From IMG/VR virus record IMGVR_UViG_3300025483_001146, positions 1 through 39,455 of that record: DNA of 39,455 nt; one strand, 5' to 3'. Origin of the DNA: a virus. This document shows positions 25,162-38,196 of the stretch, one piece after another. The number at the start of each line of letters is the position of its first letter. Position 1 is the stretch's first letter. The translations under genes were made by a program, and so were the position numbers. The notes below the pieces were generated by a model, which was not told where the DNA came from, did no database searches, and saw only the letters and a list, made by a program, of their open reading frames with translations.

Positions 25162-25490
25162 TTTATAGTAACATCTTGATTTCTACGAATAATGTGGAAA
25201 CCAAATGCTGTACAACAAATACCACTGGTGTCACCAGGCTGTAATCCGTCTAGGTAAATCATAAAATCTTTATCCATTTGTTCACGTTTTATTTTTCCTA
25301 GATCACCACCATTGGCTTTTCCGCTTGGGCAATCGCTATACATTTTTGCGGCTTGCTCGAATGTTAATTCGCTGTCTAACATCTTTTTTTGAATATCAGC
25401 AATTAAAAATAATGCTTCTTCCCTTGATACATTTCGTTGACTTCTTGTTGCATCTTCGTGTGCTATTAATATGTGACTACATCTACTCAT
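25149..25490 (-). CDS. parvulin-type peptidyl-prolyl isomerase
   Basis: This 113-residue protein is close in layout to E. coli PpiC (about 93 residues). It has an N-terminal SHILIAHED strand, then TFEQAAKMYSDCPSG and GGDLGKIKREQM, and the ending FGFHIIRR. These are the parvulin core, with the active-site His and Cys. An insert after strand 1 (about residues 13-30) explains the extra length. There is no signal peptide, so it would be cytoplasmic. It overlaps thyX by 8 bases. It may help fold virion proteins, like the GroES and DnaJ homologues in this window. Confidence 0.85.
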   Translation of the reverse strand: MSRCSHILIAHEDATRSQRNVSREEALFLIADIQKKMLDSELTFEQAAKMYSDCPSGKANGGDLGKIKREQMDKDFMIYLDGLQPGDTSGICCTAFGFHIIRRNQDVTINQSP

Positions 25491-26112
25491 TTTTTAAATA
25501 CTTCCAACTTGCTGGAAACTCCTCTTTACAAATATTATGTATTCTATCTGCTACATCACGTGTTTCTTCCTGAGTATCTTTAGCACAACGTAGGTTGCAA
25601 ACTCTAGCAAACGCATATAGTGTGCCTGACCAATACCATTCGGTCATCATATTTTGTGGTAAAACCATACGTGCTTGTTCTGGTGCTACACCTTTTTGTA
25701 TCAATGCATTGTATAAAATTAGACAACTTTCCATTGTTGTTTCCATCATATGTTTCATTGTGGGATCTAATTCAATTTCACCAGCACTGCCTTGTTTAGA
25801 ATTTTGTGGTCTACCTCTCCATGTTTTTGTGCTGTATAATTCAGGCGGAAAGTCAACATATCGTCTTGATACTTCATTCCATACTAAACCAACTTGATGT
25901 TTCACAAGTTGTCTTGCTACAAATATTGGTGCTTTAATTCTAAATTGTAATGATGCATGAGCAAAAGGAGACCAGTGATTGTGTTCAGCAAGATACTTTA
26001 TTAATTTTTCATCTGATGCTTCAAATGTTTCTTTGTTTTTACTGTAACTTACTCTTGCGGCATTCACCACAGATAAGTCTGTACCCATTTTGTCTACTAG
26101 TTCTACGATCAT
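25483..26112 (-). CDS. thyX: flavin-dependent thymidylate synthase
   Basis: This 209-residue ThyX makes dTMP from dUMP using FAD, NADPH and methylene-folate. The ThyX motif appears as [15 protein letters not shown] (71-85), where most cellular enzymes have RHRxxSxNExSxRY, so two of the first residues vary (RHR becomes KHQ, S becomes V). [16 protein letters not shown] is also typical. ATG overlaps the ferredoxin stop. It would supply thymine for an AT-rich genome. Confidence 0.95.
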
Positions 26113-26432
26113 TTGTCTTTAAAATATTTCTTTAATTTGTCTGCTTCGCCTGAATGTTTTTCATAGCCTGGCATAGGCTCTTTCTGTGTGTCTAACACTT
26201 GCCATGCTTCTGCCCATTGTCTATTAAATTTTACCCAACCTTCTGCCTCAGGATCTGTGTCTGCTTTAATGGCATCTTCGGGACATTCGGGCTCACACAC
26301 ACCACAGTCTATACATTCATCAGGATTAATAACCAGCATGTTTTCGCCCTCATAGAAGCAATCTACAGGGCAAACTGACACACAGGTAGTGTGTTTACAC
26401 AAGATACATTTATCATTAACTATATACGTCAT
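26109..26432 (-). CDS. fdxA: seven-iron ferredoxin (FdxA type)
   Basis: The protein is 107 residues from the ATG overlapping the upstream stop (TAATG). Cysteines match the 3Fe-4S plus 4Fe-4S ferredoxins. C9, C17 and C50 fit the three-iron cluster; C21, C40, C43 and C46 fit the four-iron cluster. C12 and C25 are extra. The match to alphaproteobacterial FdxA is close ([28 protein letters not shown]). It would carry electrons to a reductase. It lies next to ThyX and the replication gene gp44, so a nucleotide-synthesis partner is plausible. Confidence 0.95.
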
Positions 26433-26677
26433 TATGCTATCCAGTTCCACACACCTCTGATTGCTAATAGCAAATACATCAATTCCATTAATGCTCTTGG
26501 TGTGTCTTTATCTTTAATTCCCATTCTTACCCATATTGTGCAACTGAAACAGGCAATTGCCCAACCTATCCATTGTATTTCAGTGTTACCACTGCTTAAC
26601 AAAAAGGCACTCATCATTGCCAATATAAATCCTAACCATCTCCAACCATCGATATTGTGGTAGTACCGGATCTTCAT
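26432..26677 (-). CDS. small membrane protein
   Basis: This 81-residue protein has about three hydrophobic helices (residues 14-28, 34-50 and 62-80), many tryptophans and no signature. It starts 2 bases after the gp44 stop and shares its stop with the fdxA start. It is part of the gp44-fdxA-thyX-parvulin run. Function unknown. Confidence 0.6.
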
Positions 26678-26678
26678 T

Positions 26679-27593
26679 TTAAATATTTTGTAGTTTAATC
26701 ATTGTAGCCGCCAAATTTATCTCAGGATCAGCCACCAATGTGTGATCTACTAATCCTTGTTTAATGACCAATATTGCTTTTTCTTGACGTGCTTCGTCAC
26801 CGAACAATGTAATATTATCATACAACCATTTGTAAATGTCTTCAATCTCATCTGGACGTGCTTGACTACACACTAGTTTTCTTGCTTCAGTGATCTTGCC
26901 TGCTTTGAACAATTCAGTCATTTCTAATTTATAATCTGCTTCGCCTTTGTCTGCATTAGCAGGAGCAATCAATATGCCTTCTTGCGAATTCATTTGCACA
27001 GTATTAATACATTTTCTTAAATCAGGATATGTTGCTTTAACATATGTGTCTAATATATCTAAGTCTGGAGTTACTCCTTCGTCCATCAAAATTTTAGCAA
27101 CTCTTGTGGTAAATTCTGTTTGATCGATACGTTCAATGTGAAAGCCTTGACATCTTGAATGTAGTGCTGGAATAATTCTGTTTGGATAGTTACAAGTTAA
27201 AATAAATCTACTTGTTGTGTGATACTCTTCCATCACTCCACGCAGTGCCGCTTGTGCGTTTGGACTTAAATAATCTGCTTCATCTAGCAGTACAATTTTA
27301 AAGTCACCAAATGGAATCATTTGTACAAAATTAATAATTGTGTTTCTTATATCGTCCACACTGTTTGTTCTACTTGCATTTATTTCTAATATATCTAAAT
27401 CATTCAGTTCAAGTTCATTGAATAATACTTTTGCCAGTGTAGTTTTACCTATACCTGCATTACCGCTGAATAATAAATGAGGAATAGTTTTATCTTTTAC
27501 CCATTGTTGTACTTGATTACGTTGATGATTATCTCTAAAAACGTATTCATCTAATGTTTTCGGTCTGTATTTTTCTACCCATAAATCTTTCAC
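26679..27593 (-). CDS. 44: clamp loader large subunit (gp44), GTG start
   Basis: This 304-residue AAA+ protein (T4 gp44, 319) loads the gp45 clamp. Walker A is GNAGIGKT (44-51) and Walker B LLDEAD (102-107). The arginine finger is in SRC (146-148). I use GTG at 27593 because AAGGAGAG stands 4 bases before it and the protein then begins VKDLWVEKYRPKTL, the family start. The reading frame is open further upstream, but that stretch encodes another protein. The GTG shares a base with the TAG of the 55-residue gene. The small subunit gp62 is not in this window. Confidence 0.95.
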   Translation of the reverse strand: MKDLWVEKYRPKTLDEYVFRDNHQRNQVQQWVKDKTIPHLLFSGNAGIGKTTLAKVLFNELELNDLDILEINASRTNSVDDIRNTIINFVQMIPFGDFKIVLLDEADYLSPNAQAALRGVMEEYHTTSRFILTCNYPNRIIPALHSRCQGFHIERIDQTEFTTRVAKILMDEGVTPDLDILDTYVKATYPDLRKCINTVQMNSQEGILIAPANADKGEADYKLEMTELFKAGKITEARKLVCSQARPDEIEDIYKWLYDNITLFGDEARQEKAILVIKQGLVDHTLVADPEINLAATMIKLQNI

Positions 27594-27760
27594 TAGTCTC
27601 TCCTTATATATTCTTGTCCAATTCCGCTTAATATTAAAATTATGTATAAAATAACCCAACCCCAACCTGTGATGGCGCCTGTTAAATGTAAAGTCATCAA
27701 CACAATGCCAGTTACTCCGGTTGTGTTTAATCCTTTAGATTGTATTACTGGAAGTTTCAT
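27593..27760 (-). CDS. 55-residue membrane protein upstream of gp44
   Basis: This short frame begins MKLPVIQSKGLNTTG and has two hydrophobic segments, VTGIVLMTLHLTGAI and WVILYIILILSGIG, then a charged end (QEYIRRD). Its TAG overlaps the gp44 GTG. It starts exactly 6 bases after the -10 box of a near-consensus promoter, which supports it as a leaderless gene. Function unknown. It may also set the translation of gp44. Confidence 0.65.
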   Translation of the reverse strand: MKLPVIQSKGLNTTGVTGIVLMTLHLTGAITGWGWVILYIILILSGIGQEYIRRD

Positions 27761-27764
27761 TCAT

Positions 27765-27785
27765 ACAGTATATGTGGTATACTGT
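27765..27785. promoter_or_regulatory. perfect dyad overlapping an early promoter
   Basis: ACAGTATA and TATACTGT, arms of 8 bp with a 5-bp centre, lie over the spacer and -10 box of the promoter at 27767-27795. The position suits a repressor or activator binding site. The binding protein is unknown. Confidence 0.55.
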
Positions 27786-27795
27786 GATTTGTCAA
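27767..27795 (-). promoter_or_regulatory. sigma70-like early promoter of the gp44 operon
   Basis: TTGACA (27790-27795), a 17-base spacer and TATACT (27767-27772). The -35 box begins 3 bases after the TAA stop of the GroES-like gene. The ATG of the 55-residue gene follows 6 bases after the -10 box. Confidence 0.85.
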
Positions 27796-27798
27796 GTA

Positions 27799-28179
27799 TT
27801 ATTCAGCCAAATAAGGTGAATCATTGTCTACTCTTCTAGACAACACATCTTCTGGTTTTTCTTTGGAAGTTCCTAAAACAGATTCTGCTTCTACACTACG
27901 AAAAACATTTTTAATACCATTTTTATCTTTCATAGTAACGCCTCTACTCCATCTGCCATGTTCAACTAAAATCCAATCACCTACTTCGTAATCGTCATCG
28001 TTCTCATGACCTTTGGCAAAAACTTTGCCCCAACGTGGATGAATGCCTCTGGCTTGTCCATCATCTGACGCAATGATTATTCCGCCAGCAGTTTTTTGTT
28101 CGCCAAAATACATGTCAGTGACTATTACTCTGTTATGTATTGGAGTAAGTGTACCTTCGTAAATATCTATTGCGGACAT
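27799..28179 (-). CDS. GroES/gp31-like co-chaperonin
   Basis: This 126-residue protein resembles GroES-fold co-chaperonins. It has LTPIHNRVIVTD near the start, a mobile-loop region (FGEQKTAGGIIIASDDGQARG), GKVFAKG, and VGDWILVEHGRWSRG. T4 gp31 (111 residues) replaces GroES for folding the capsid protein gp23. The C-terminal 30 residues are an extra charged tail. TAATG couples it to the gene before. The call rests on pattern, since the family is variable. Confidence 0.75.
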   Translation of the reverse strand: MSAIDIYEGTLTPIHNRVIVTDMYFGEQKTAGGIIIASDDGQARGIHPRWGKVFAKGHENDDDYEVGDWILVEHGRWSRGVTMKDKNGIKNVFRSVEAESVLGTSKEKPEDVLSRRVDNDSPYLAE

Positions 28180-28532
28180 TAGTCTTGTTCTTTTTTAACA
28201 AAATTTCCGTCTGCATCTTCAACCCATCCGTCTTTTGAAGTTTCTTCTACTGGTGCTTCTGCAACAGGTTCTTCTACGACTGGTTGTGCCACAGGCTCTA
28301 CAGTTTGTTCTTTATGAGAAACAGTATTAGGATTATCTCTGTAATAGTCTGCCAAAACATCTTCTCTTTTTTTGATGATTTTGCCACCTGCTCCTAATTC
28401 ATCACCTCTAGCATTTACTTTGGCATTGCCAACTGCTGGAGTTAATTCATTTCTTTTTCTTAAAAGATCCATGTCTACGGTTTTACCCTGCATAGTCTTG
28501 TAAACTTTTTTGCCTGTCTGTTTTACTGCCAT
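28179..28532 (-). CDS. conserved-looking small phage protein
   Basis: This 117-residue protein begins MAVKQTGKKVYKTMQGKTVD. It has a basic N-terminal half (LRKRNELTPAVGNAKVNARGDELG) and a Pro/Glu/Val-rich low-complexity segment (about 78-98), ending with DGWVEDADGNFVKK. I associate this layout with marine T4-like phages but know no function. It has AGGAG and a late element (28557-28564), so it is a late gene co-expressed with the co-chaperonin. Confidence 0.6.
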   Translation of the reverse strand: MAVKQTGKKVYKTMQGKTVDMDLLRKRNELTPAVGNAKVNARGDELGAGGKIIKKREDVLADYYRDNPNTVSHKEQTVEPVAQPVVEEPVAEAPVEETSKDGWVEDADGNFVKKEQD

Positions 28533-28556
28533 TTTTCTATTCTCCTATTATATGTG

Positions 28557-28564
28557 TATTTATC
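28557..28564 (-). promoter_or_regulatory. late promoter GATAAATA
   Basis: GATAAATA with the TAA of the DnaE-like gene (28560-28562) inside it, followed by AGGAG and the ATG at 28532. Confidence 0.7.
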
Positions 28565-29081
28565 TAATGAATTCCTGCCAGTCCAGTCGATACTGGATCG
28601 AATCAATTTTATGTATGCCCAAAAGGTACAATACATAACTTGCTACCGAACTGCCTCTGCCTACACCCCACACAATTTTATTTTCTTTCATAAATGTTAC
28701 CAAAAAATGTAAAAACTTCAATAGATTCAGATGTCCTAGTTCTTTGAACTTGTTTAATTCTTCTGTAACTCTTGTTTTTGCTTCTGGGTTATCTGGACAC
28801 TGTGTTACCAAAAACTTTTCAATATCAAACTGCTTGTAACTGTTGGGCATAAACCATTCTGATTGTAAAAGACTATCAAAATCTTCCAAACTGATGTCTA
28901 ATGGTTCATAAAACTTTAGCATTTGTCCATCACCTGTTTCTTTGATAGACAAATTGAATTGTTCAGTTTCTGAATTTTTTTCCACATACACTTTAAACAG
29001 TGTATCCAGTTTGCCTTTGTATATAAGATCCATACAATCTTCTACACCGTACTTCGGCAAACCTAAAGTGTCAATTTTCAT
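28560..29081 (-). CDS. orphan fragment of the DnaE (PolIII alpha) fold
   Basis: This 173-residue protein has a C-terminal region matching the start of the polymerase domain of bacterial DnaE. It has RVTEEL (104-109), then KENKIVWGVGRGSSVASYV (132-150), YLLGIHKIDSIQYRLDWQEFI (near 152-172). DnaE has [23 protein letters not shown] followed by LLFERFLNPER. The phage protein stops where DnaE goes on to the catalytic aspartates, so it cannot polymerise DNA by itself. The N-terminal 100 residues are not recognised. A sigma70 promoter lies 6 bases upstream of the ATG, with no Shine-Dalgarno, so it is early and probably leaderless. Confidence 0.75.
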   Translation of the reverse strand: MKIDTLGLPKYGVEDCMDLIYKGKLDTLFKVYVEKNSETEQFNLSIKETGDGQMLKFYEPLDISLEDFDSLLQSEWFMPNSYKQFDIEKFLVTQCPDNPEAKTRVTEELNKFKELGHLNLLKFLHFLVTFMKENKIVWGVGRGSSVASYVLYLLGIHKIDSIQYRLDWQEFIR

Positions 29082-29087
29082 AAATGT

Positions 29088-29116
29088 ATTATATGTGATT
29101 TAATTCAAAAAGTCAA
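29088..29116 (-). promoter_or_regulatory. sigma70-like early promoter of the DnaE-like gene
   Basis: TTGACT (29111-29116), a 17-base spacer and TATAAT (29088-29093), with the ATG 6 bases further. TCATTGACTTT follows directly on a TAA stop, as at the other early promoters. Confidence 0.87.
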
Positions 29117-29119
29117 TGA

Positions 29120-29353
29120 TTAATCTATGTTAATCAAATCGTCCACATCATTACCAGAACTTTTGTCTAATTCTTTTTGTTCATGATACCAACGCATTTT
29201 GATTTCTTCTGTGTACTCTGAAATGAATAGACTTATTTGGTGACGAACGTCTGGATTATTTGCTCGTAGGTATTTGGTACGCAACTCTGTAAGTTTTTTT
29301 TCTAATTCTGGTGTTGTGATGTCTTGAGTTGGTTTGCCCAATGGATGGAACAT
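29120..29353 (-). CDS. small helical protein
   Basis: This 77-residue charged, helical protein (PELEKKLTELRTKYLRANN, then YTEEIKMRWYHEQKELD) has no known motif. It starts shortly after the stop of a structural gene without a clear Shine-Dalgarno, and ends in front of an early promoter. It may be a small assembly factor, but no function can be assigned. Confidence 0.55.
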   Translation of the reverse strand: MFHPLGKPTQDITTPELEKKLTELRTKYLRANNPDVRHQISLFISEYTEEIKMRWYHEQKELDKSSGNDVDDLINID

Positions 29354-29359
29354 AAAATA

Positions 29360-29914
29360 TTAACTGAATTGACCAATATATCTGGCAAACACAGTAACTC
29401 CGTTATCGTTAGTATAAAATTCTACTACCAAAGGATTTGTTGTACTGTCAACTACAAATGGACTAGGAAATCCAGATGCTGTTTTAATTGTGCCGCCGTC
29501 TGCCGCCCACGTAACAGTTCTGTCTCCACCTGATTTTATAATCTGTACCACAACACTTTCTAATGCATTTGCTTGTGAACTCCAGTCAGCCAATGTTAAT
29601 GTAACATTTGCACCTACAGTGATTGTTTGAAAATTACCATTAGACAAACTGATGTTTTGATCAGTGGTAACTGAACCAGCACTATGACTTTTTACAAAAT
29701 TACTTTTGAATAAAGCACCACTAACTTCATTACCTGCAAAGTTGTTGTTGCTATTAAGTTTTGCTGTGTTGGTTTCTAAACTAGTGATTTCTGTTTTTGC
29801 TGTGGCAAAATTGCTTTTGATTGTGTTGAAATTATCTCTAAATCCTTGGCTGTTGTTATCTTGCCCTGCTACAGGATATGTTGCATCTATGCTTGTTGAA
29901 TCTATATTACTCAT
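29360..29914 (-). CDS. tail or fibre structural protein
   Basis: This 184-residue protein has a helical N-terminal segment (FRDNFNTIKSNFATAKTEITSLE) of the type found at the start of marine phage fibre proteins. A beta-rich C-terminal part follows (FQTITVGANVTLTLADW, VVVQIIKSGGDRTVTW, ending ARYIGQFS). The late element at 29934-29941 and GTAGGAAA precede the ATG. It belongs to the structural block that continues to the right edge. Confidence 0.65.
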   Translation of the reverse strand: MSNIDSTSIDATYPVAGQDNNSQGFRDNFNTIKSNFATAKTEITSLETNTAKLNSNNNFAGNEVSGALFKSNFVKSHSAGSVTTDQNISLSNGNFQTITVGANVTLTLADWSSQANALESVVVQIIKSGGDRTVTWAADGGTIKTASGFPSPFVVDSTTNPLVVEFYTNDNGVTVFARYIGQFS

Positions 29915-29933
29915 AATAGTTGTTTCCTACTGT

Positions 29934-29941
29934 TATTTATC
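29934..29941 (-). promoter_or_regulatory. late promoter GATAAATA
   Basis: GATAAATA directly follows the TAA stop (29942-29944) of the 1033-residue gene and precedes a Shine-Dalgarno and the ATG at 29914. Confidence 0.72.
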
Positions 29942-32900
29942 TTATACATTATATTGATAGTTAGGAAAGAGTATGTATTGATCAGCACTATTGCCCTCTG
30001 TTCCTGCCACAATGTATCTATCAATTTCAAAATTAATATTTTTTATATCAAATCCGCTGTTTTTCACTGCTAGAGCAATATTTTGGCTAGTTCCTTCTTT
30101 ACAATAACACAATGGTACTGCTGTGGTGTAACCTAATGCTTGATTGCCACTTTGTGCTGTACGCATCCAAAGAGGTAATAACCCTCCTTCAGTTGTGCCC
30201 AAAGATTTGATATTGTTTCTCATGTTAGAAATATTACTGATGTATCTTATTTCGTCATCACTCATACTTGCTTTCAATAAATCACTGTCTACTTTGATTA
30301 CAGAATTTTTTGGTCTGAATCTAAATGGATCTCCAGTAATTTGCTCCACAGTTCCTACTACTAAATCAGGACCTGACTGCATATCTATTAATAATTCTCC
30401 ATTAGGTACATCAACTAGTAATCTACCTGTTCTTGCAAATATTTCTAAACTGGTTCCTACACCCGAAACAGATAGACTTGAATTTGCTTGAGCAAAAATA
30501 GTGTAAGAAGAACCTCCAACATTTAATTTTGTTGAATCGTCAGTAACTTCCAGTTGAGTTTGATTAACTTTAATTGTAGTTTGTGGAGTTATCTTGAATG
30601 ATGTTCTTGTGCTTAAACTTTTTGAATCTCTAATATCTACTACATCAGCATACACTAATTCGTAGGCAATATTGTTAGTTCCAGGATATTTTGCCACTGC
30701 TGTTTTTATATCTCCAAAGTTGAATCTAGATCGTTTGTGATTTTTTGAAACTGCTGTCACATAATTGCCAACAACTTTCTTTTCTATTCCTGAATAAACC
30801 AACATACGCATATTTTTTTGTAATCCAAAATCTGGATCTGTGGGTCTATAAATTTTGTCTATTTCAAATATAGTCGTGTTACTGATAAAATCTTTAAAAT
30901 AACTTCGTTGTGATGATTTTAATAATGGTTGAGCATATAAATCTGTAAATGTTTTTGTAACATCTGTGTTAATTATTAAATTAAAGGTACGTTCAACAGA
31001 ACTAAACCCAAATCTATCTTGAGCTCTTACTTTAAATGAATAACTTTCATCCACGGTGGTTGTTCCACCATCGAGTATTAACAAATTGTTATCAAATGAT
31101 GTTATACCTGATAAAGAATTTTCACTATACAGTCTAACATTTCCTACAATTTCTCCATCCAACGATAGACTTAATCCTGGAGGCAAAGATCCACTCATCA
31201 ACAGATATTTCATTTTAGCATCTGTGACTGTGCTTGTAGCCTCTAATTTCAAATGACTGGTTAGGTTGGCTTTTAACGTTCCTAATGCTGATGCAGTGTT
31301 CCATGTGATCGTACTGTCCACTTCGCCCAACACTTTAACAGTAAATGTTTTTGTTGCTGTGGGTTGAGTGTCTGTGCTGTTTAACAAAAAGTTTTTGCTG
31401 TATGATGCATCTTTGAAAGCCGCTATACTAATATTTTGTTCATTCACGAAACTGTCTGTTAACGGAATATTTAAAACTAATTTTTCCATTGCTGTGGCAC
31501 TGGCAATTCCCTGTAATGCAGGTTCGCCTTCTGCTAATAAAGATTGTATGTCTGAAATAATATATTCATTAGAACCAATTCTTAATGTTCTACCTTTGTA
31601 TTTGTCTTTTGATATTCTATTGTAAACAAATATTTCATTGTTTGCTCTTGCTATTGTTGTTTGAATTCCATTTTTGTAATCGTTAGGATCATAAATTGTA
31701 CCAGTGTACACTAATAAATCATTTGCTGTAAGATTTCTGTTAAGTGTAAGCACTTCGTAATTTTGATTTGCACCGTCTACTCCTAGGATTGTGTATTCTT
31801 CGTTATTGATTGTTATTTTTTCGCCAATTAAACTTTCTAAATCATCCAATCCATCTGTTAGACCCACTGGTAATTTTTGTATTTTTAATTCATCTCCACC
31901 TTGTTGTTGATCTTCGTATGGAGTAATAATCACTGTGACCAAATCACTACCTGTTCCGGCTCTAACTGCACTCACTGTAAATTTATACTCTTTGCTTACA
32001 GCAGGTTGATAAGGAACCCTACCTGCTATTTCTCCTGTGATAGGATCCAGTGTCATACCTGGTGGTATAATAGAAGCAGAATTATCATTGTTGGTGTTTT
32101 CTAAAATATAACTGATTGTTCCAGGCACTGTGTTTGGATCATACAGTTCTAAAAATATTGTGACATAGTTGTTGGCTCTTTTAAAACCTAAATCTGTTGG
32201 TGTTAACCACTGCGGAGTTCTTAGATATGTTCCGTCTGATGTGAATATACCTGTTCCAATCTGCATGATGGTGTTGTCTGCTCTTAAATAGTCGTCACCT
32301 ACTACAAATATTTTGAATATTCTACTTATAGTTGAATCGCCGTCAGTTACATTAACTGTAAAATTATAAAAACGATTTAATTTTCTTTGATTTCTATTAC
32401 TGACTTGTTGGTTGTATAAGTCTGAAAACTCTTGCACATCAAAATAAAAACTTTTATTGGCAATTGATCCTGACAAACCAAAGTCAAAAGGTGCTGATGC
32501 ATAATCGTTGGAATCATAATACCCTGTGCTGGACAAAATATCAAGTGCTTTGATAGGATCCACTAACCCAGAAATTTTTCCTGTCTGACTTAACGTTAAT
32601 CCTGGTGGTAATTCTCCACCGCCTTCTGGAATATAATATTCTAAGACTGTGTTGGCACTTAAATCAGCATCTTGAGCCTCCAATTGAAAGTCTACATACG
32701 AACTGTCCAATATAAACAGTTGACTGTCTGCTCCAATAGGAAGTGTACCAGATGGTGTTACCCATGTTGGTGCATCAGCACCTTCAACATTAACTGTGAA
32801 AGTTCTATCCTGTATTCTTGTGTCGTGCTTGGCTCTTAAACAAAATTCAAATTTTGTGGATCTGCTGACTTGAAACGGAGTTCCTATCAGTGTTTGACCT

Positions 32901-33043
32901 TCTAATCTCAATCCAGGAGGTATTGTGCCTGCTATTGTTGTGATTGTGTCAGCACCTGAAATAGGCAATGTGATAGTGGTAGGCACTCTTTCTTGAAATG
33001 TACCTAAATTATAACCTGTTTGAACTGTCCATAAATCGTGCAT
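29942..33043 (-). CDS. large virion protein with Ig-like domains
   Basis: At 1033 residues it is the largest protein in the window. At least four copies of the putative-Ig (He_PIG/cadherin-like) turn are seen: IPPGLRLEGQTLIGTP, LPPGLTLSQTGKISG, IPPGMTLDPITGEIAG and LPPGLSLSLDGEIVG. Each is followed by a strand ending like TFTVNV or YKFTVSAVRAG. No enzyme motif is seen. This suits a long fibre or a baseplate-attached adhesin. The late element is 8 bases upstream of the ATG, and there is no Shine-Dalgarno. Confidence 0.75.
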   Translation of the reverse strand: MHDLWTVQTGYNLGTFQERVPTTITLPISGADTITTIAGTIPPGLRLEGQTLIGTPFQVSRSTKFEFCLRAKHDTRIQDRTFTVNVEGADAPTWVTPSGTLPIGADSQLFILDSSYVDFQLEAQDADLSANTVLEYYIPEGGGELPPGLTLSQTGKISGLVDPIKALDILSSTGYYDSNDYASAPFDFGLSGSIANKSFYFDVQEFSDLYNQQVSNRNQRKLNRFYNFTVNVTDGDSTISRIFKIFVVGDDYLRADNTIMQIGTGIFTSDGTYLRTPQWLTPTDLGFKRANNYVTIFLELYDPNTVPGTISYILENTNNDNSASIIPPGMTLDPITGEIAGRVPYQPAVSKEYKFTVSAVRAGTGSDLVTVIITPYEDQQQGGDELKIQKLPVGLTDGLDDLESLIGEKITINNEEYTILGVDGANQNYEVLTLNRNLTANDLLVYTGTIYDPNDYKNGIQTTIARANNEIFVYNRISKDKYKGRTLRIGSNEYIISDIQSLLAEGEPALQGIASATAMEKLVLNIPLTDSFVNEQNISIAAFKDASYSKNFLLNSTDTQPTATKTFTVKVLGEVDSTITWNTASALGTLKANLTSHLKLEATSTVTDAKMKYLLMSGSLPPGLSLSLDGEIVGNVRLYSENSLSGITSFDNNLLILDGGTTTVDESYSFKVRAQDRFGFSSVERTFNLIINTDVTKTFTDLYAQPLLKSSQRSYFKDFISNTTIFEIDKIYRPTDPDFGLQKNMRMLVYSGIEKKVVGNYVTAVSKNHKRSRFNFGDIKTAVAKYPGTNNIAYELVYADVVDIRDSKSLSTRTSFKITPQTTIKVNQTQLEVTDDSTKLNVGGSSYTIFAQANSSLSVSGVGTSLEIFARTGRLLVDVPNGELLIDMQSGPDLVVGTVEQITGDPFRFRPKNSVIKVDSDLLKASMSDDEIRYISNISNMRNNIKSLGTTEGGLLPLWMRTAQSGNQALGYTTAVPLCYCKEGTSQNIALAVKNSGFDIKNINFEIDRYIVAGTEGNSADQYILFPNYQYNV

Positions 33044-33051
33044 GATATATG

Positions 33052-33059
33052 TATTTATC
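33052..33059 (-). promoter_or_regulatory. late promoter GATAAATA
   Basis: GATAAATA, then 8 bases, then the ATG at 33043, with no Shine-Dalgarno between. Confidence 0.68.
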
Positions 33060-33073
33060 GAGTTGTAAAATGC

Positions 33074-33751
33074 TTAGATAGATCCAAAGTCAATGCCAGT
33101 AGCAGATGGTGACGTTATTGTGCCCATATTTACTGGATTGAAAGATTCAAGCCATTGTAACAAGTTGTTCACAGGATTTTGTACACCGCCAAAGTCAAAT
33201 CCAACAAGACTGTCTAAGTCATCAATGTCCACCCCTTTAACTAAACCGTTAAAATTGTTTCCTGTGATTGTGCCAACGTTTGTAAAATTATTTCCACCAG
33301 CATTTAAATTTGCTGATAGTGTGGGTGAAGTTTCATTTGCTAGTGCTGAATTTATTGTAATGTTTGATCCAGTACCTGCAGTGGTTGTTCCACCTGTACC
33401 TTGAACGGTAACCTGACCTTGAGATCCAATTGGTGTTAATGAACCTGTGTCTGTAGTGAATAATATGCTCACAATACCTGATGATGTGATTGTGATTTGA
33501 TTGTTATCAGCACTTAATGAAACATTAGGTCCTGCTTTTAAATTTTTGAAACTTAAATTATCATTAGTTTTTGCGGCAAACACACCTTTTGTTGTACCAT
33601 CATCTGCTAATTTATTAGATGCTGTTGTGTTTTCTGCCTGACGAGCGTCTAGTTCAGTGAAGTTGTTGTTAACCTTAACAAAGGCTTCTCTCAGATCATC
33701 ACCTGTACCGTCGTTTGCCAGTGTTCCTATGTTGATTGTGCTAATTGCCAT
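33074..33751 (-). CDS. tail-fibre-type structural protein
   Basis: This 225-residue protein starts INIGTLANDGTGDDLREAF and VNNNFTELDARQAE, the N-terminal pattern of many marine phage fibre or baseplate proteins. A repetitive, beta-rich region rich in Gly, Thr, Asn and Ser follows. It is in line with the neighbouring structural genes. A GATAAATA element sits 5 bases before its ATG, the leaderless geometry. Confidence 0.65.
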   Translation of the reverse strand: MAISTINIGTLANDGTGDDLREAFVKVNNNFTELDARQAENTTASNKLADDGTTKGVFAAKTNDNLSFKNLKAGPNVSLSADNNQITITSSGIVSILFTTDTGSLTPIGSQGQVTVQGTGGTTTAGTGSNITINSALANETSPTLSANLNAGGNNFTNVGTITGNNFNGLVKGVDIDDLDSLVGFDFGGVQNPVNNLLQWLESFNPVNMGTITSPSATGIDFGSI

Positions 33752-33756
33752 ACTAA

Positions 33757-33764
33757 TATTTATC
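33757..33764 (-). promoter_or_regulatory. late promoter GATAAATA, leaderless position
   Basis: GATAAATA, 5 bases, then the ATG at 33751. The TAA stop of the protease gene (33760-33762) lies inside the element. The arrangement is nearly the same as at 9290-9297. Confidence 0.7.
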
Positions 33765-35433
33765 CTAAATTAAAAGGCTTTTGTCCATGCATCGGAAAGT
33801 ATGCCACTCTGTTTGGACCACCATGTATAGTGGTATTTGTTGTGTAGTCATCTGTGTTGCCTGTATCATTAAGATTAGCAACAGCATTTGATTCAAAATA
33901 GGTTTTAACCTGTCCTGGTGTCCAACCAGGTTGTGCTTGTAACAAACATCCAATCATGCCACACATTTGTGGAGCCGCCATTGATGTTCCTGAATATTTT
34001 GCTTGTTTGTAATTGGAGTCTGCAAAGTATGATGAACCTTGATTGTTAGGTTGAGCACTTATAATATATCTTCCTGCTGTGTAGATGTTTACACCAGGTC
34101 CTGATTGACTGAATGTTGTTTTCTTATCTCTGTACGAAACTTCATAAAATACATCACTGTTTTCCAATGCACCTACCATGAACCCTTCATTTAAATCTCC
34201 TGCAGGATTATCATCAGTTACATTAGGACCACTCAATGTGCTTCCGCCTTCAACCAATGATGGTGTACCACCTCTGTGGTAATATACGTAATATGTTGAG
34301 GCACCAACTGCAATAGAAAGATAATTGTCATAATCAACACCGCCCGGAATATCCATTTTCATTGAATCATTTCCTGCGGCACAACACACATGAATTCCGT
34401 TGTTAACCAATGTTTCTACATCAGCATCTTGTGAAGCAATTTTGTATGGATAGCCGTAAAAAGATCCTCCTTGTGCTTCTCCTATCAATCCACGATTTTG
34501 TAGATTGGCATATGTTGTGTCTGTGTGTGCAACTCCTCTGTATCTACCGCCAGTGATATTGTATTCTGTTCCGCCATCTGAAAATGCAATTGTGTTTGGT
34601 GTTACGCCAGTATTGATGTACCAAACATATCCAAAACTCATATTAACCACAGTAGGTTTACCTGTATAAGCCGCATCATTGACATCATTCTTTTTGTTGT
34701 GCCAACCTATTAATGCATCAATTGTATTTGACCAAGAAATATTGTTTCCACTGTTTGCATACAAAGTTATATTGTATATGTCTGAATTTTTGCACCAACC
34801 AAATGTTTTGCCTGCCATAGTTCCTATGCAGTGAGTACCGTGTCCATTTGTGTCTGTGTAAAAGTTTGCTGGTTGTGTAAAAACTTCACCACTTATTGTG
34901 GGCCAGTTTACTTGTTTCAATCTAGACACACCATTTGCATCTTCCCATTCTGGATGACCAACCTGTATGCCAGTATCAACAATCACTTGGTCAACACCTG
35001 TACCATCCAACACATAATCATATGTGCCACCTGGATCTGCTGTGCTGTTATTAAATGTATTCAATTGATTGATGTGTCTTAACAATCCCCAATTGTCTTG
35101 ACTGCCTGCTGAAGATGAACTTCTATTAAAATTTCCATTTTGAAATGCACGAGGTTTTGGTTCAGGAATAAGATCAAGTGCTTGAACAGCCAATATTCTT
35201 GAATCTTTTCTCAAATTAATTGCTTCAGATTCTGATAGAGTGTAATGTGTATTTCTAGGATTGTTTGCACGTTCTTGAGCAACTTCACAATTTCTATCTG
35301 GTATTATATTTGAATCTACAGAATCGTTTGCAGAAGTATCAACAATTAATTCATTGTGAACTGTGCGCCAGTCTATATCTTTTTTAACTGTGACTATGTA
35401 TTCTCTTAACTGATTTAAATCTGTTGCTATCAT
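33760..35433 (-). CDS. subtilisin-like serine protease (S8)
   Basis: This 557-residue protein has a complete S8 catalytic set: D153 in IVDTGIQVGH, H198 in NGHGTHCIGTMAG, N355 in CCAAGNDS (oxyanion hole) and S484 in SGTSMAAPQM. The N-terminal ~110 residues may be a pro-region. Insertions between the catalytic blocks account for the size. There is no signal peptide. It sits between fibre genes, with 6 bases to the 918-residue gene, so it may be virion-borne, acting on host surface proteins or maturing fibres. Subtilase identity is certain; the target is unknown. Confidence 0.93.
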   Translation of the reverse strand: MIATDLNQLREYIVTVKKDIDWRTVHNELIVDTSANDSVDSNIIPDRNCEVAQERANNPRNTHYTLSESEAINLRKDSRILAVQALDLIPEPKPRAFQNGNFNRSSSSAGSQDNWGLLRHINQLNTFNNSTADPGGTYDYVLDGTGVDQVIVDTGIQVGHPEWEDANGVSRLKQVNWPTISGEVFTQPANFYTDTNGHGTHCIGTMAGKTFGWCKNSDIYNITLYANSGNNISWSNTIDALIGWHNKKNDVNDAAYTGKPTVVNMSFGYVWYINTGVTPNTIAFSDGGTEYNITGGRYRGVAHTDTTYANLQNRGLIGEAQGGSFYGYPYKIASQDADVETLVNNGIHVCCAAGNDSMKMDIPGGVDYDNYLSIAVGASTYYVYYHRGGTPSLVEGGSTLSGPNVTDDNPAGDLNEGFMVGALENSDVFYEVSYRDKKTTFSQSGPGVNIYTAGRYIISAQPNNQGSSYFADSNYKQAKYSGTSMAAPQMCGMIGCLLQAQPGWTPGQVKTYFESNAVANLNDTGNTDDYTTNTTIHGGPNRVAYFPMHGQKPFNLG

Positions 35434-35439
35434 TAATCA

Positions 35440-38196
35440 TTACGAGACAATGGATCTATCACTGACTCTTCTCCAATTTGATCCATCGTAGAATGCCGGT
35501 ATAGCACCGCCTGTTTCGTCAGTACAATACACCATGCTTCCAGCAGACGCTACGAAAGTGTTTAATTGTGATACTGTTTTAGATACTAATCTAAATGGTA
35601 CATCTGATTTTACTTCTCCTGCACCACTTGCCGCATCCAAAGTGATTGTGGTAGGTGATGAAATATTATATGTTCCAACCAAACCACTTGGTGGTGCAAT
35701 ACTGCTTGCCTCGATGTTTGTGACTGATAAAGTGTCTGTACCACTGTTGTATGTGAATGTTGAATCTCCAGCAAAAGCACCACTGTTATTGAATTGTACT
35801 TGAGTGTCTGCTCCGCCTGGAGTTCCACCACCGCCACCACCTGATGCATTAATTGTGATTGAATCTGTACCTGCGTCAGTAGTGATTGTTACGTTTGTAC
35901 CTGCAACAAGAGTTAATGTATCTGTTGTTGTTTCTGCTGTAACTGTTGACTGTCCTGAAACTGCAACATTGGCAAATAAATTTTGATCAGCATTTGGTGA
36001 TGAGTTTGTAAGTGTTATAGTATCACCGGTAATTGCTGTTGTTATGCCAGTTCCACCTGCAATAGTGAATGTGTCTGTGGCACCTGAGGCTGTAATAGTG
36101 CCTGAATCAGCACTGAATGTTTCAAATAAATTTTGTGTTGCTCCTGAAGAATTAATTGTGACACTTTTTCCTGTGTTATCTGTGGTAAGTGTTGTGTTTG
36201 TGCCTGCTACAAAAGTTAATACACCATTCACTGAAGCAGTGGTAACATCTGTTTGTCCTGCTACTCTAACAGTGTTGAAAATGCTTTGATCAACATTTGG
36301 AGAACTGTTTGTGACTGTGATGGATTTAGCGGCATCATTCAATATGAATCCTATACCACCGCCACCTACAAAGTTTAATGTTGTGCTGGCAGAATTTGCT
36401 GTGATCGTTGTATCATCATCTGGTGAAGCAATAGAACCAAACAAGTTTTGATCTACATTGGGTGCTGAGTTTGTGATGGTTACTTGATCACCTACAGCAT
36501 CTCCTGTGACAGTAATACCTGTGCCTGCTGTAAATGCCAATGTGTCTGTGGATGTGTCTGCTGTGATTGTGACACCACCTGCCAACACATTTTGAAATAT
36601 GTTTTGATCCACATTTGGTGCACTGTTTGTGATTGTGATTAAATCATTCACAGCAGTCATTGTGATTCCAGCACCAGTTTGGAAATTTAATGTGTCCACG
36701 TTTGAATTTGCAGTTGTTGATCCACCTGATGGTGTTATTGCAAAAGTTTTGTAAGCAAAGTTATCAGATACATTGTAATTGTTGTTGCTACCTGTGTATG
36801 CAATTTGTAATTTGCCAGCAACCACAGTGGTTGAAATGTTTGTTCCACCCACAATACTCAATGTGTCTGTGATGCTTGAAGCAGTAATTAATGTATCAGT
36901 ATCATCTGCCACTTTGTAAAAAATATTTTGATCTACGTTAGGTGCTGAGTTTGTTATTAACACTTGATCAACTGCACCGCCGACTCCTGCACCTGTTCCG
37001 GTAGCACTTACAGTGATTCCTGATCCACCGCCTATGTACAACACATCGTTGGGATCATCTGCTATCAATTCAACATTGTCTCCTGGAGTACCTATGGCAA
37101 CAATTTCAAAGTTGTTGGCTTCACCACCTACATTACCTGTGTAGTTGATTGTCAATGTACTTCCCACAATGCTTGTAGAAATTGCTGATCCGCCCACAAC
37201 ATTTAAAGTGTCAGATGTGGTTCCTGCTGTTTTACTGCCTGAATCTGAACCTACAGTTTGAAAAATGTTTTGTTCTGTGATAGAACTATCAATTTGAATA
37301 GTGTCATTGCCAGCATTAGGTGTGATCACAATGCCTGTACCAGGTACTAGAGTCAATGTGTCGTTGACAGAATCTGCTACAACATCTGTAACACCCACTC
37401 TCACTGTGCCAAACGCATTGGACAGTGTTTGTGTGTTGTTGATAGTGATTGAATTTTCGTCTGTTCTTGTCACAGATACATTTGTACCTGCTTTAATTTT
37501 CACATCATCTGTTGCTCCTGATGAACTCTGCAATCTTAAAACTTGATCACCATCTCCGTCTTGAGCACTTGCTATACCATAGGTTGTATCGGTATCCGTA
37601 CTGGTGAATGTTAATGAATTTGAATTTCTTGTGATGCCTACATTTGTGCCTGCAACCAATGTGATATCTTGTATAGCATCTGAGCTGTCTCTTAATCTTA
37701 TTTTTTTACTGTCGACATCATCACCATCTGTACCTGTTAATGTGTAAGTGGTATTTCCGTCTGCCCCTCCACCCACAACATTGTGAGTGATAGTTAATAC
37801 ATCTGTGCCATTTTCTTCTGTAAGTGCTGTGGTAACATCACCTGAACCTTGAATTTTTAATGTGTTGCCTGGCAATATGGTTCTTGCCACAGAGTCATCT
37901 GCTGTAACAATTAATCCACCGCCACCTTGAATGGTAACATTTCCTCCGCCACCGCCTTGTCCTAATAAACTTTGTGTATCTGTTAAATCAGAAATATCTG
38001 CTGGTATTGTGGGTGCGCCTTGCAGTTCACTGTATTGCAATGTGAATGGTGTTCCAGCAATACTTAATGTTTGTGTTTGAACAGAATTAACACCGACAAG
38101 ATTAGAATTTGTAAGATCAAGATTATCATTGATCGGTAATTCTTTTATCTTGTTACCGTCTGCAGTGTCTACTACTAGTGGTATTCTATTTGCCAT
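35440..38196 (-). CDS. repetitive tail-fibre protein
   Basis: This 918-residue protein begins ANRIPLVVDTADGNKIKELP. From about residue 130 to 790 it consists of roughly a dozen repeats of about 50 residues. A consensus is QNIF, then a short strand, then SDTLTLVAGTGI, then a strand ending ITITNSAPNVD. Such repeats form stacked beta-structures in fibres. Glycine-rich joints occur near residue 75 and before the C-terminal domain (GGGGGGTPGGADTQVQFN). The C-terminal tail (VYCTDETGGAIPAFYDGSNWRRVS) is a common fibre ending. It has AGAGGA and a late element upstream. Confidence 0.82.
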   Translation of the reverse strand: MANRIPLVVDTADGNKIKELPINDNLDLTNSNLVGVNSVQTQTLSIAGTPFTLQYSELQGAPTIPADISDLTDTQSLLGQGGGGGNVTIQGGGGLIVTADDSVARTILPGNTLKIQGSGDVTTALTEENGTDVLTITHNVVGGGADGNTTYTLTGTDGDDVDSKKIRLRDSSDAIQDITLVAGTNVGITRNSNSLTFTSTDTDTTYGIASAQDGDGDQVLRLQSSSGATDDVKIKAGTNVSVTRTDENSITINNTQTLSNAFGTVRVGVTDVVADSVNDTLTLVPGTGIVITPNAGNDTIQIDSSITEQNIFQTVGSDSGSKTAGTTSDTLNVVGGSAISTSIVGSTLTINYTGNVGGEANNFEIVAIGTPGDNVELIADDPNDVLYIGGGSGITVSATGTGAGVGGAVDQVLITNSAPNVDQNIFYKVADDTDTLITASSITDTLSIVGGTNISTTVVAGKLQIAYTGSNNNYNVSDNFAYKTFAITPSGGSTTANSNVDTLNFQTGAGITMTAVNDLITITNSAPNVDQNIFQNVLAGGVTITADTSTDTLAFTAGTGITVTGDAVGDQVTITNSAPNVDQNLFGSIASPDDDTTITANSASTTLNFVGGGGIGFILNDAAKSITVTNSSPNVDQSIFNTVRVAGQTDVTTASVNGVLTFVAGTNTTLTTDNTGKSVTINSSGATQNLFETFSADSGTITASGATDTFTIAGGTGITTAITGDTITLTNSSPNADQNLFANVAVSGQSTVTAETTTDTLTLVAGTNVTITTDAGTDSITINASGGGGGGTPGGADTQVQFNNSGAFAGDSTFTYNSGTDTLSVTNIEASSIAPPSGLVGTYNISSPTTITLDAASGAGEVKSDVPFRLVSKTVSQLNTFVASAGSMVYCTDETGGAIPAFYDGSNWRRVSDRSIVS
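35830..37800 (-). repeat. about 50-residue beta repeats in the fibre gene
   Basis: Coding repeats of about 150 bases, roughly a dozen copies, diverged at DNA level. The best conserved DNA is that for NSAPNVDQNIF. Edges are approximate. Confidence 0.7.

Follow-up and report, generated by a model that had tools for sequence, protein, structure and literature searches.

In a marine bacterial virus and its relatives, the C-terminal tip of a tail fibre and the subtilisin-like protease encoded immediately after it travel as one cassette. We delimited this cassette in a stretch of 39,455 nucleotides of IMG/VR record IMGVR_UViG_3300025483_001146 (hereafter the window; all positions refer to it). Tentatively, and with slightly less confidence than the word probable would convey, we read the gene product as a proteinase K-type subtilase that is catalytically competent, matures itself and serves as a tail-fibre-tip accessory of the virion and likely cuts host-surface proteins.

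The protease gene encodes a complete proteinase K-type subtilase

The gene and its active-site codons are as follows.

33760..35433, minus strand, subtilase (S8, proteinase K-like), 557 aa; supported by Pfam, PHROG, Foldseek and dN/dS
34975..34977, minus strand, catalytic Asp153 (IVDTGI), kept in 57 of the 60 unique proteins of the set built on dn225 (the downstream 225-aa protein), window included
34840..34842, minus strand, catalytic His198 (GHGTH), invariant in alignment A1
34369..34371, minus strand, oxyanion-hole Asn355 (AAGND), invariant in alignment A1
33982..33984, minus strand, catalytic Ser484 (GTSMAAP), invariant in alignment A1

The open reading frame runs on the minus strand from an ATG at 35433 to a stop at 33760, both exact. 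The sole Pfam match of the 557-aa product was Peptidase_S8 (PF00082, residues 151-523), and its E value of 3.2e-27 means that the subtilase identity is not due to chance. Over its full length (residues 8-541), the protein also matched the profile of PHROG 9158, a family of unknown function (E 8.6e-71). The D-H-S order, the HGTH and GTSMA motifs and the oxyanion Asn are those of proteinase K-type S8 enzymes, and with D153, H198, N355 and S484 all in place, the claim of an earlier note that the S8 protease is complete held good. Retention of all four residues was seen in 57 of the 60 unique proteins, among them every close relative of the window protease. The gene is under purifying selection: against six relatives, dN/dS was 0.12-0.26 for the whole gene, 0.10-0.27 for the catalytic part and 0.14-0.34 for the pro-part. 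We found no hydrophobic segment at the N-terminus (maximum 12-residue Kyte-Doolittle mean of 0.22 over the first 45 residues), in agreement with the earlier view that the protease has no signal peptide.

Predicted fold and pro-domain

The AlphaFold model of the 557-aa protease (pLDDT 84, pTM 0.79) comprised an N-terminal beta-alpha-beta-beta-alpha-beta unit (residues 9-85), a loose linker and a proteinase K-like catalytic domain. Foldseek matched this model to proteinase K-like enzymes, aqualysin and keratinase, which were also its best matches among solved structures, with E values of 1e-14 to 5e-17 and TM scores (by target length) of 0.82-0.86 to 2b6n, 5wsl and 4dzt. Two segments precede the catalytic domain.

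35179..35409, minus strand, predicted I9-type pro-domain, residues 9-85; AlphaFold secondary structure, pLDDT mostly 80-92
35098..35148, minus strand, variable linker and predicted mature start A96-F97-Q98, residues 96-112; conservation and AlphaFold loop

The layout predicted for residues 9-85 is that of an Inhibitor_I9 pro-domain placed ahead of a catalytic domain. The window protease gave no match to Inhibitor_I9 (PF05922), five of nine relatives tested gave sub-threshold ones (E 0.009-0.11; 13.7-17.1 bits, below the cut-off of 21.2), and the best match of the pro-domain to the PDB by sequence alone had an E value of 0.38, so that the I9 assignment rests on the predicted structure together with the sub-threshold Pfam matches. 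In most comparisons the linker region (residues 96-112) was the least conserved part of the protease, and a low-confidence loop lies at residues 91-94; Q98 was conserved in 60 of 70 aligned rows. The mature enzyme is accordingly predicted to start around residues 96-98, the cleavage site being a putative one. The pro-region of about 110 residues suggested earlier was thus close to the extent now predicted.

The protease lies in a conserved operon of fibre and baseplate-type genes

33074..33751, minus strand, dn225, downstream 225-aa protein; N-terminal PHROG 677/958 matches, baseplate/fibre type
35440..38196, minus strand, upstream fibre protein, 918 aa, with a repeat-rich shaft; PHROG 677, 1.7e-34, four stretches
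29942..33043, minus strand, He_PIG (Ig-like) structural-type protein, 1033 aa; Pfam PF05345, 1.1e-10; conserved in the operon of relatives
29360..29914, minus strand, 184-aa protein, the next conserved operon member; conserved gene order in relatives

Between the 918-aa fibre gene, a match to PHROG 677 ('baseplate wedge tail fiber protein connector'), and the protease gene lie 6 bp, and dn225 starts 8 bp past the end of the protease gene, which confirms that the protease sits among fibre genes. The same order of fibre, protease (one or two copies), dn225, a 292-aa protein in some, He_PIG and 184-aa protein was found in dozens of contigs. A subtilase directly preceded dn225 in 66 of 79 informative loci and was absent from the other 13, and the gap between fibre and protease was 1-26 bp across 84 measured loci. 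Two further observations concern the end of the operon: an ORF of about 173 aa follows it in many relatives, and positions 28560-29081 of the window encode a 173-aa fragment-like match to a DNA polymerase III alpha domain.

Loci with and without the protease also differed in their fibres, which were 259-291 aa long in the unique loci without a subtilase (n=8) and at least 372 aa long in those with one (n=36). Comparison of L145, which carries a subtilase, with L124 and L141, which do not, placed the extra fibre part at the C-terminal tip. Three independent contrasts in presence or absence of the protease and the fibre C-terminal domain all agreed, but three are too few for significance (sign test, p=0.25).

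The fibre tip and the protease are exchanged as one block

35440..35828, minus strand, fibre C-terminal tip, type A, about 130 aa; DNA-identity boundary with L150 and L153, and tip typing
33767..35828, minus strand, cassette of fibre tip and protease; replaced as a block in L150, L151 and L153

DNA comparison with the related contig L150 gave 99.2% identity over 26111-33766, an unalignable stretch at 33767-35828 and 88% identity in the fibre shaft from 35829. From 26111 to the shaft, the last ~130 fibre codons and the whole protease gene were the sole unalignable block. L153 and L151 shared the downstream breakpoint (33766), and their breakpoint in the fibre gene was at or near the same point. 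Elsewhere in this pair, a block of about 617 bp (25494-26110) is missing from L150 in otherwise 99% identical DNA; it coincides with a thymidylate synthase ORF (25483-26112) and looks like a clean gene gain or loss.

The fibre genes preceding the protease had at least four tip types. The window and L001 both had tip A, and their proteases were 91% identical. In L071, dn225 was 99.6% identical to that of the window, yet the protease was only 30% identical and the tip was of type B; in L007 and L010, dn225 was just 43-45% identical, yet the protease was 73-78% identical and the tip was A. Over 58 loci, the tip type changed 3 times on the protease tree against 8 on that of dn225, the flanking gene, the tip types having been assigned by simple motif rules and both trees being quick searches. 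Because of these counts and of the bracketed DNA block at 33767-35828, we conclude that the fibre tip and the protease travel as one cassette, the tip and its accessory gene being exchanged as a unit. This coupling of the protease to the fibres is stronger than the earlier note could see. The specific partner of the enzyme is probably not the repeat-rich shaft, because the shaft DNA stays alike (about 84-88% identity) when the non-repetitive tip is replaced along with the protease. Tip type C (fibre C-termini of L019-L050) has a cupredoxin-like 'YQCTxHxxMxG' end, which is also present in the fibre connector of cyanophage S-RIM12.

A different explanation of the same pattern is that the protease acts on the host from the baseplate/fibre region of the virion without being matched to the tip, and that co-exchange is mere hitch-hiking of neighbours. 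Genes 6 bp apart would be carried together by one exchange, and the presence/absence contrasts are only three in number, as stated above. We nevertheless consider this unlikely, though a serious null hypothesis, as hitch-hiking sits poorly with the 3 against 8 tip-type changes and with cassette boundaries that are the same or nearby in several phages.

Relatives of the protease and of the window phage

Relatives of the protease were encoded in 56 IMG/VR loci and about 50 phage records, the isolates being mostly T4-like phages of Synechococcus and Prochlorococcus, whose records call the products hypothetical, subtilisin-like or virion structural. Among the isolates inspected, a fibre, tail-pin or short hypothetical gene usually ends within a few bases of the start of the protease gene, and a structural gene usually comes next. 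The alignment showed D, H, N and S kept in 13 of 14 cyanophage isolates, the His of S-WAM2 being a doubtful alignment. These cyanophage proteins form PHROG 9158 / T4-GC 292, with members such as PSSM2_297 of P-SSM2, gene 177 of S-MbCM7 and the 'subtilisin-like serine protease' of S-H38 and S-WAM2. They resemble the window protease in full-length homology, the I9-like N-terminus, the retained active-site residues and the gene slot, directly preceded by a fibre, tail-pin or short gene and followed by a structural gene, but are just 23-31% identical to it. The tip-B proteases of L071, L073, L077, L085 and L091 clustered with those of cyanophages S-CREM1 and S-H38, and on that grouping different phage groups appear to share the cassette.

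Unlike those cyanophages, the window phage has a DNA polymerase nearest to the jumbo phages of rhizobia Phosso (49%) and Atu_ph07 (47%); its clamp loader was nearest to PA5oct-like phages. Given these affinities, and with no psbA found in 7 related contigs, which are possibly fragments, a cyanophage origin of the window was not supported. In a structure search of viral proteins, the fold was also linked to a protein of Atu_ph07 annotated as 'extracellular serine proteinase'; the main text of PMC6102473 gave no virion status for it.

Several relatives carry an inserted mobile domain of about 305 aa that is not present in the window (L024:7054-7971, L010 aa 179-476, L193, L200, L234 and others). 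We found 170 stretches of it and kept 80 loci, in which it was 76-100% identical to the query although its carriers differed. Within subtilases it sits at the C-terminus or in loops, either past the catalytic Asp or close to query residue 427-436; it also occurs inside large non-subtilase ORFs, and in S-RIM2/S-RIM12 cyanophages at 90-93% identity. It had no match by sequence in Pfam, NCBIfam or the PDB, and its confident model gave weak fold matches, led by a zinc metallopeptidase (E 0.24). We rejected by eye the idea that an intein accounts for the long ORFs of L010-L012, as the block is without the expected intein start and end residues; its recurrence at other sites and at C-termini also speaks against an intein. 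In the baseplate region of S-RIM12 (L247), a 1723-aa 'baseplate wedge subunit' with the mobile domain follows the fibre connector, in the slot of the S-CREM1/S-H38 subtilase.

A tandem subtilase paralogue with Glu in place of the catalytic Asp precedes the main protease in L019, L022, L024, L034, L041, L042 and others. The 12 upstream paralogues of this kind formed a single clade (support 100/100) and kept His, Asn and Ser; separately, the very divergent proteases beside tip B in L088-L090 have Glu at the Asp position. The paralogues suggest that parts of the subtilase family may dispense with catalysis. On a further reading, the subtilase fold would be an adhesin or structural module in which proteolysis is unimportant, as the clade of 12, L088-L090 and the insertion of the mobile domain between Asp and His in L010-L012 might indicate. 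Such a role is very improbable for the window protease, against which weighs the full D/H/N/S set in the 57 of 60 unique proteins, all its close relatives among them.

Proposed location in the virion

In S-SCSM1, S-TIM54 and ACG-2014h, large structural-type proteins contain a fused subtilase domain. The homologue in Synechococcus phage S-SCSM1 (1411 aa, about 27% identical) is labelled '(virion protein)', and mass spectrometry of S-SCSM1 virions identified 45 virion proteins (PMC9602691). We counted 48 such labels in the record, against 45 proteins in the publication; they mark proteins that PMC9602691 names as detected, such as ORF91 NMNAT. Because the labels include an unexpected translational repressor and are absent from several predicted structural genes, they very probably reflect detection by mass spectrometry. 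The earlier proposal that the window protease is virion-bound thereby gains indirect support by analogy, through one homologue that is distant and much larger; a search of the literature for phage virion subtilases found nothing direct.

The protease might instead be a fibre maturase, trimming the neighbouring tip within the infected cell or in the particle as it is assembled, so that the tip, as its substrate, would be swapped with it. The lack of a signal peptide and the absence of the tip domain from subtilase-less loci in the aligned set agree with this, and it explains the co-exchange equally well. We regard it as somewhat unlikely all the same, since by analogy the S-SCSM1 label and the fusions to structural-type proteins favour a particle-borne protease over an intracellular maturase.

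Proposed role and comparison with known systems

Several results support the reading of the protease as a fibre-tip accessory: its active site is intact and conserved, a pro-domain is predicted, the gene is under purifying selection in a conserved operon, and tip and protease are exchanged as a cassette. The enzyme would be made in the cytoplasm as a precursor inhibited by its I9-type pro-domain, would cut itself near residue 95/96 to yield the mature form, and would then dock at or close to the tip of the fibre whose gene directly precedes its own, from where it would most likely cut host surface proteins during adsorption. Exchange of tip and protease is the strongest evidence that both work together, and suggests that the enzyme works at or on the fibre tip in host recognition, with the caveat that neighbouring genes can be exchanged jointly even when their products do not cooperate.

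The window protease has in common with the proteinase K, aqualysin and keratinase enzymes of MEROPS S8A the triad, the fold and the pro-domain arrangement. Those enzymes are secreted and have signal peptides, whereas the window protease has none and contains long insertions, its catalytic region spanning at least about 410 residues, compared with 276 in 4dzt. In T-even phages, gene 38 (adhesin/chaperone) lies directly after the fibre tip gene 37 and is exchanged together with the tip. The likeness is one of arrangement alone, a gene just after the fibre gene being swapped with the tip; in the window phage the second gene is a protease. Virion depolymerases and tailspike hydrolases are tail enzymes that cut polysaccharides on the host surface, and the window protease would resemble them in tail location and presumed host-surface action, with proteins as its putative substrate.

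Dozens of marine phage genomes contain subtilases that are labelled 'subtilisin-like' or 'hypothetical' and to which no role has been assigned. The joint exchange of protease and fibre tip points towards a part in recognising the host or in maturing the fibre, and predicts which fibre belongs with which protease. Should the enzyme be carried on the virion and act on the host surface, it would parallel the well-known capsule depolymerases, but with proteins as its target. More broadly, it is possible, if still doubtful, that one exchangeable cassette for host recognition is common to T4-like cyanophages and marine jumbo-type phages, each type of tip being paired with a tip-borne protease of its own. 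Such proteases would cut proteins where depolymerases cut polysaccharides, and would have been diversified further by tandem Glu-for-Asp paralogues and mobile-domain insertion.
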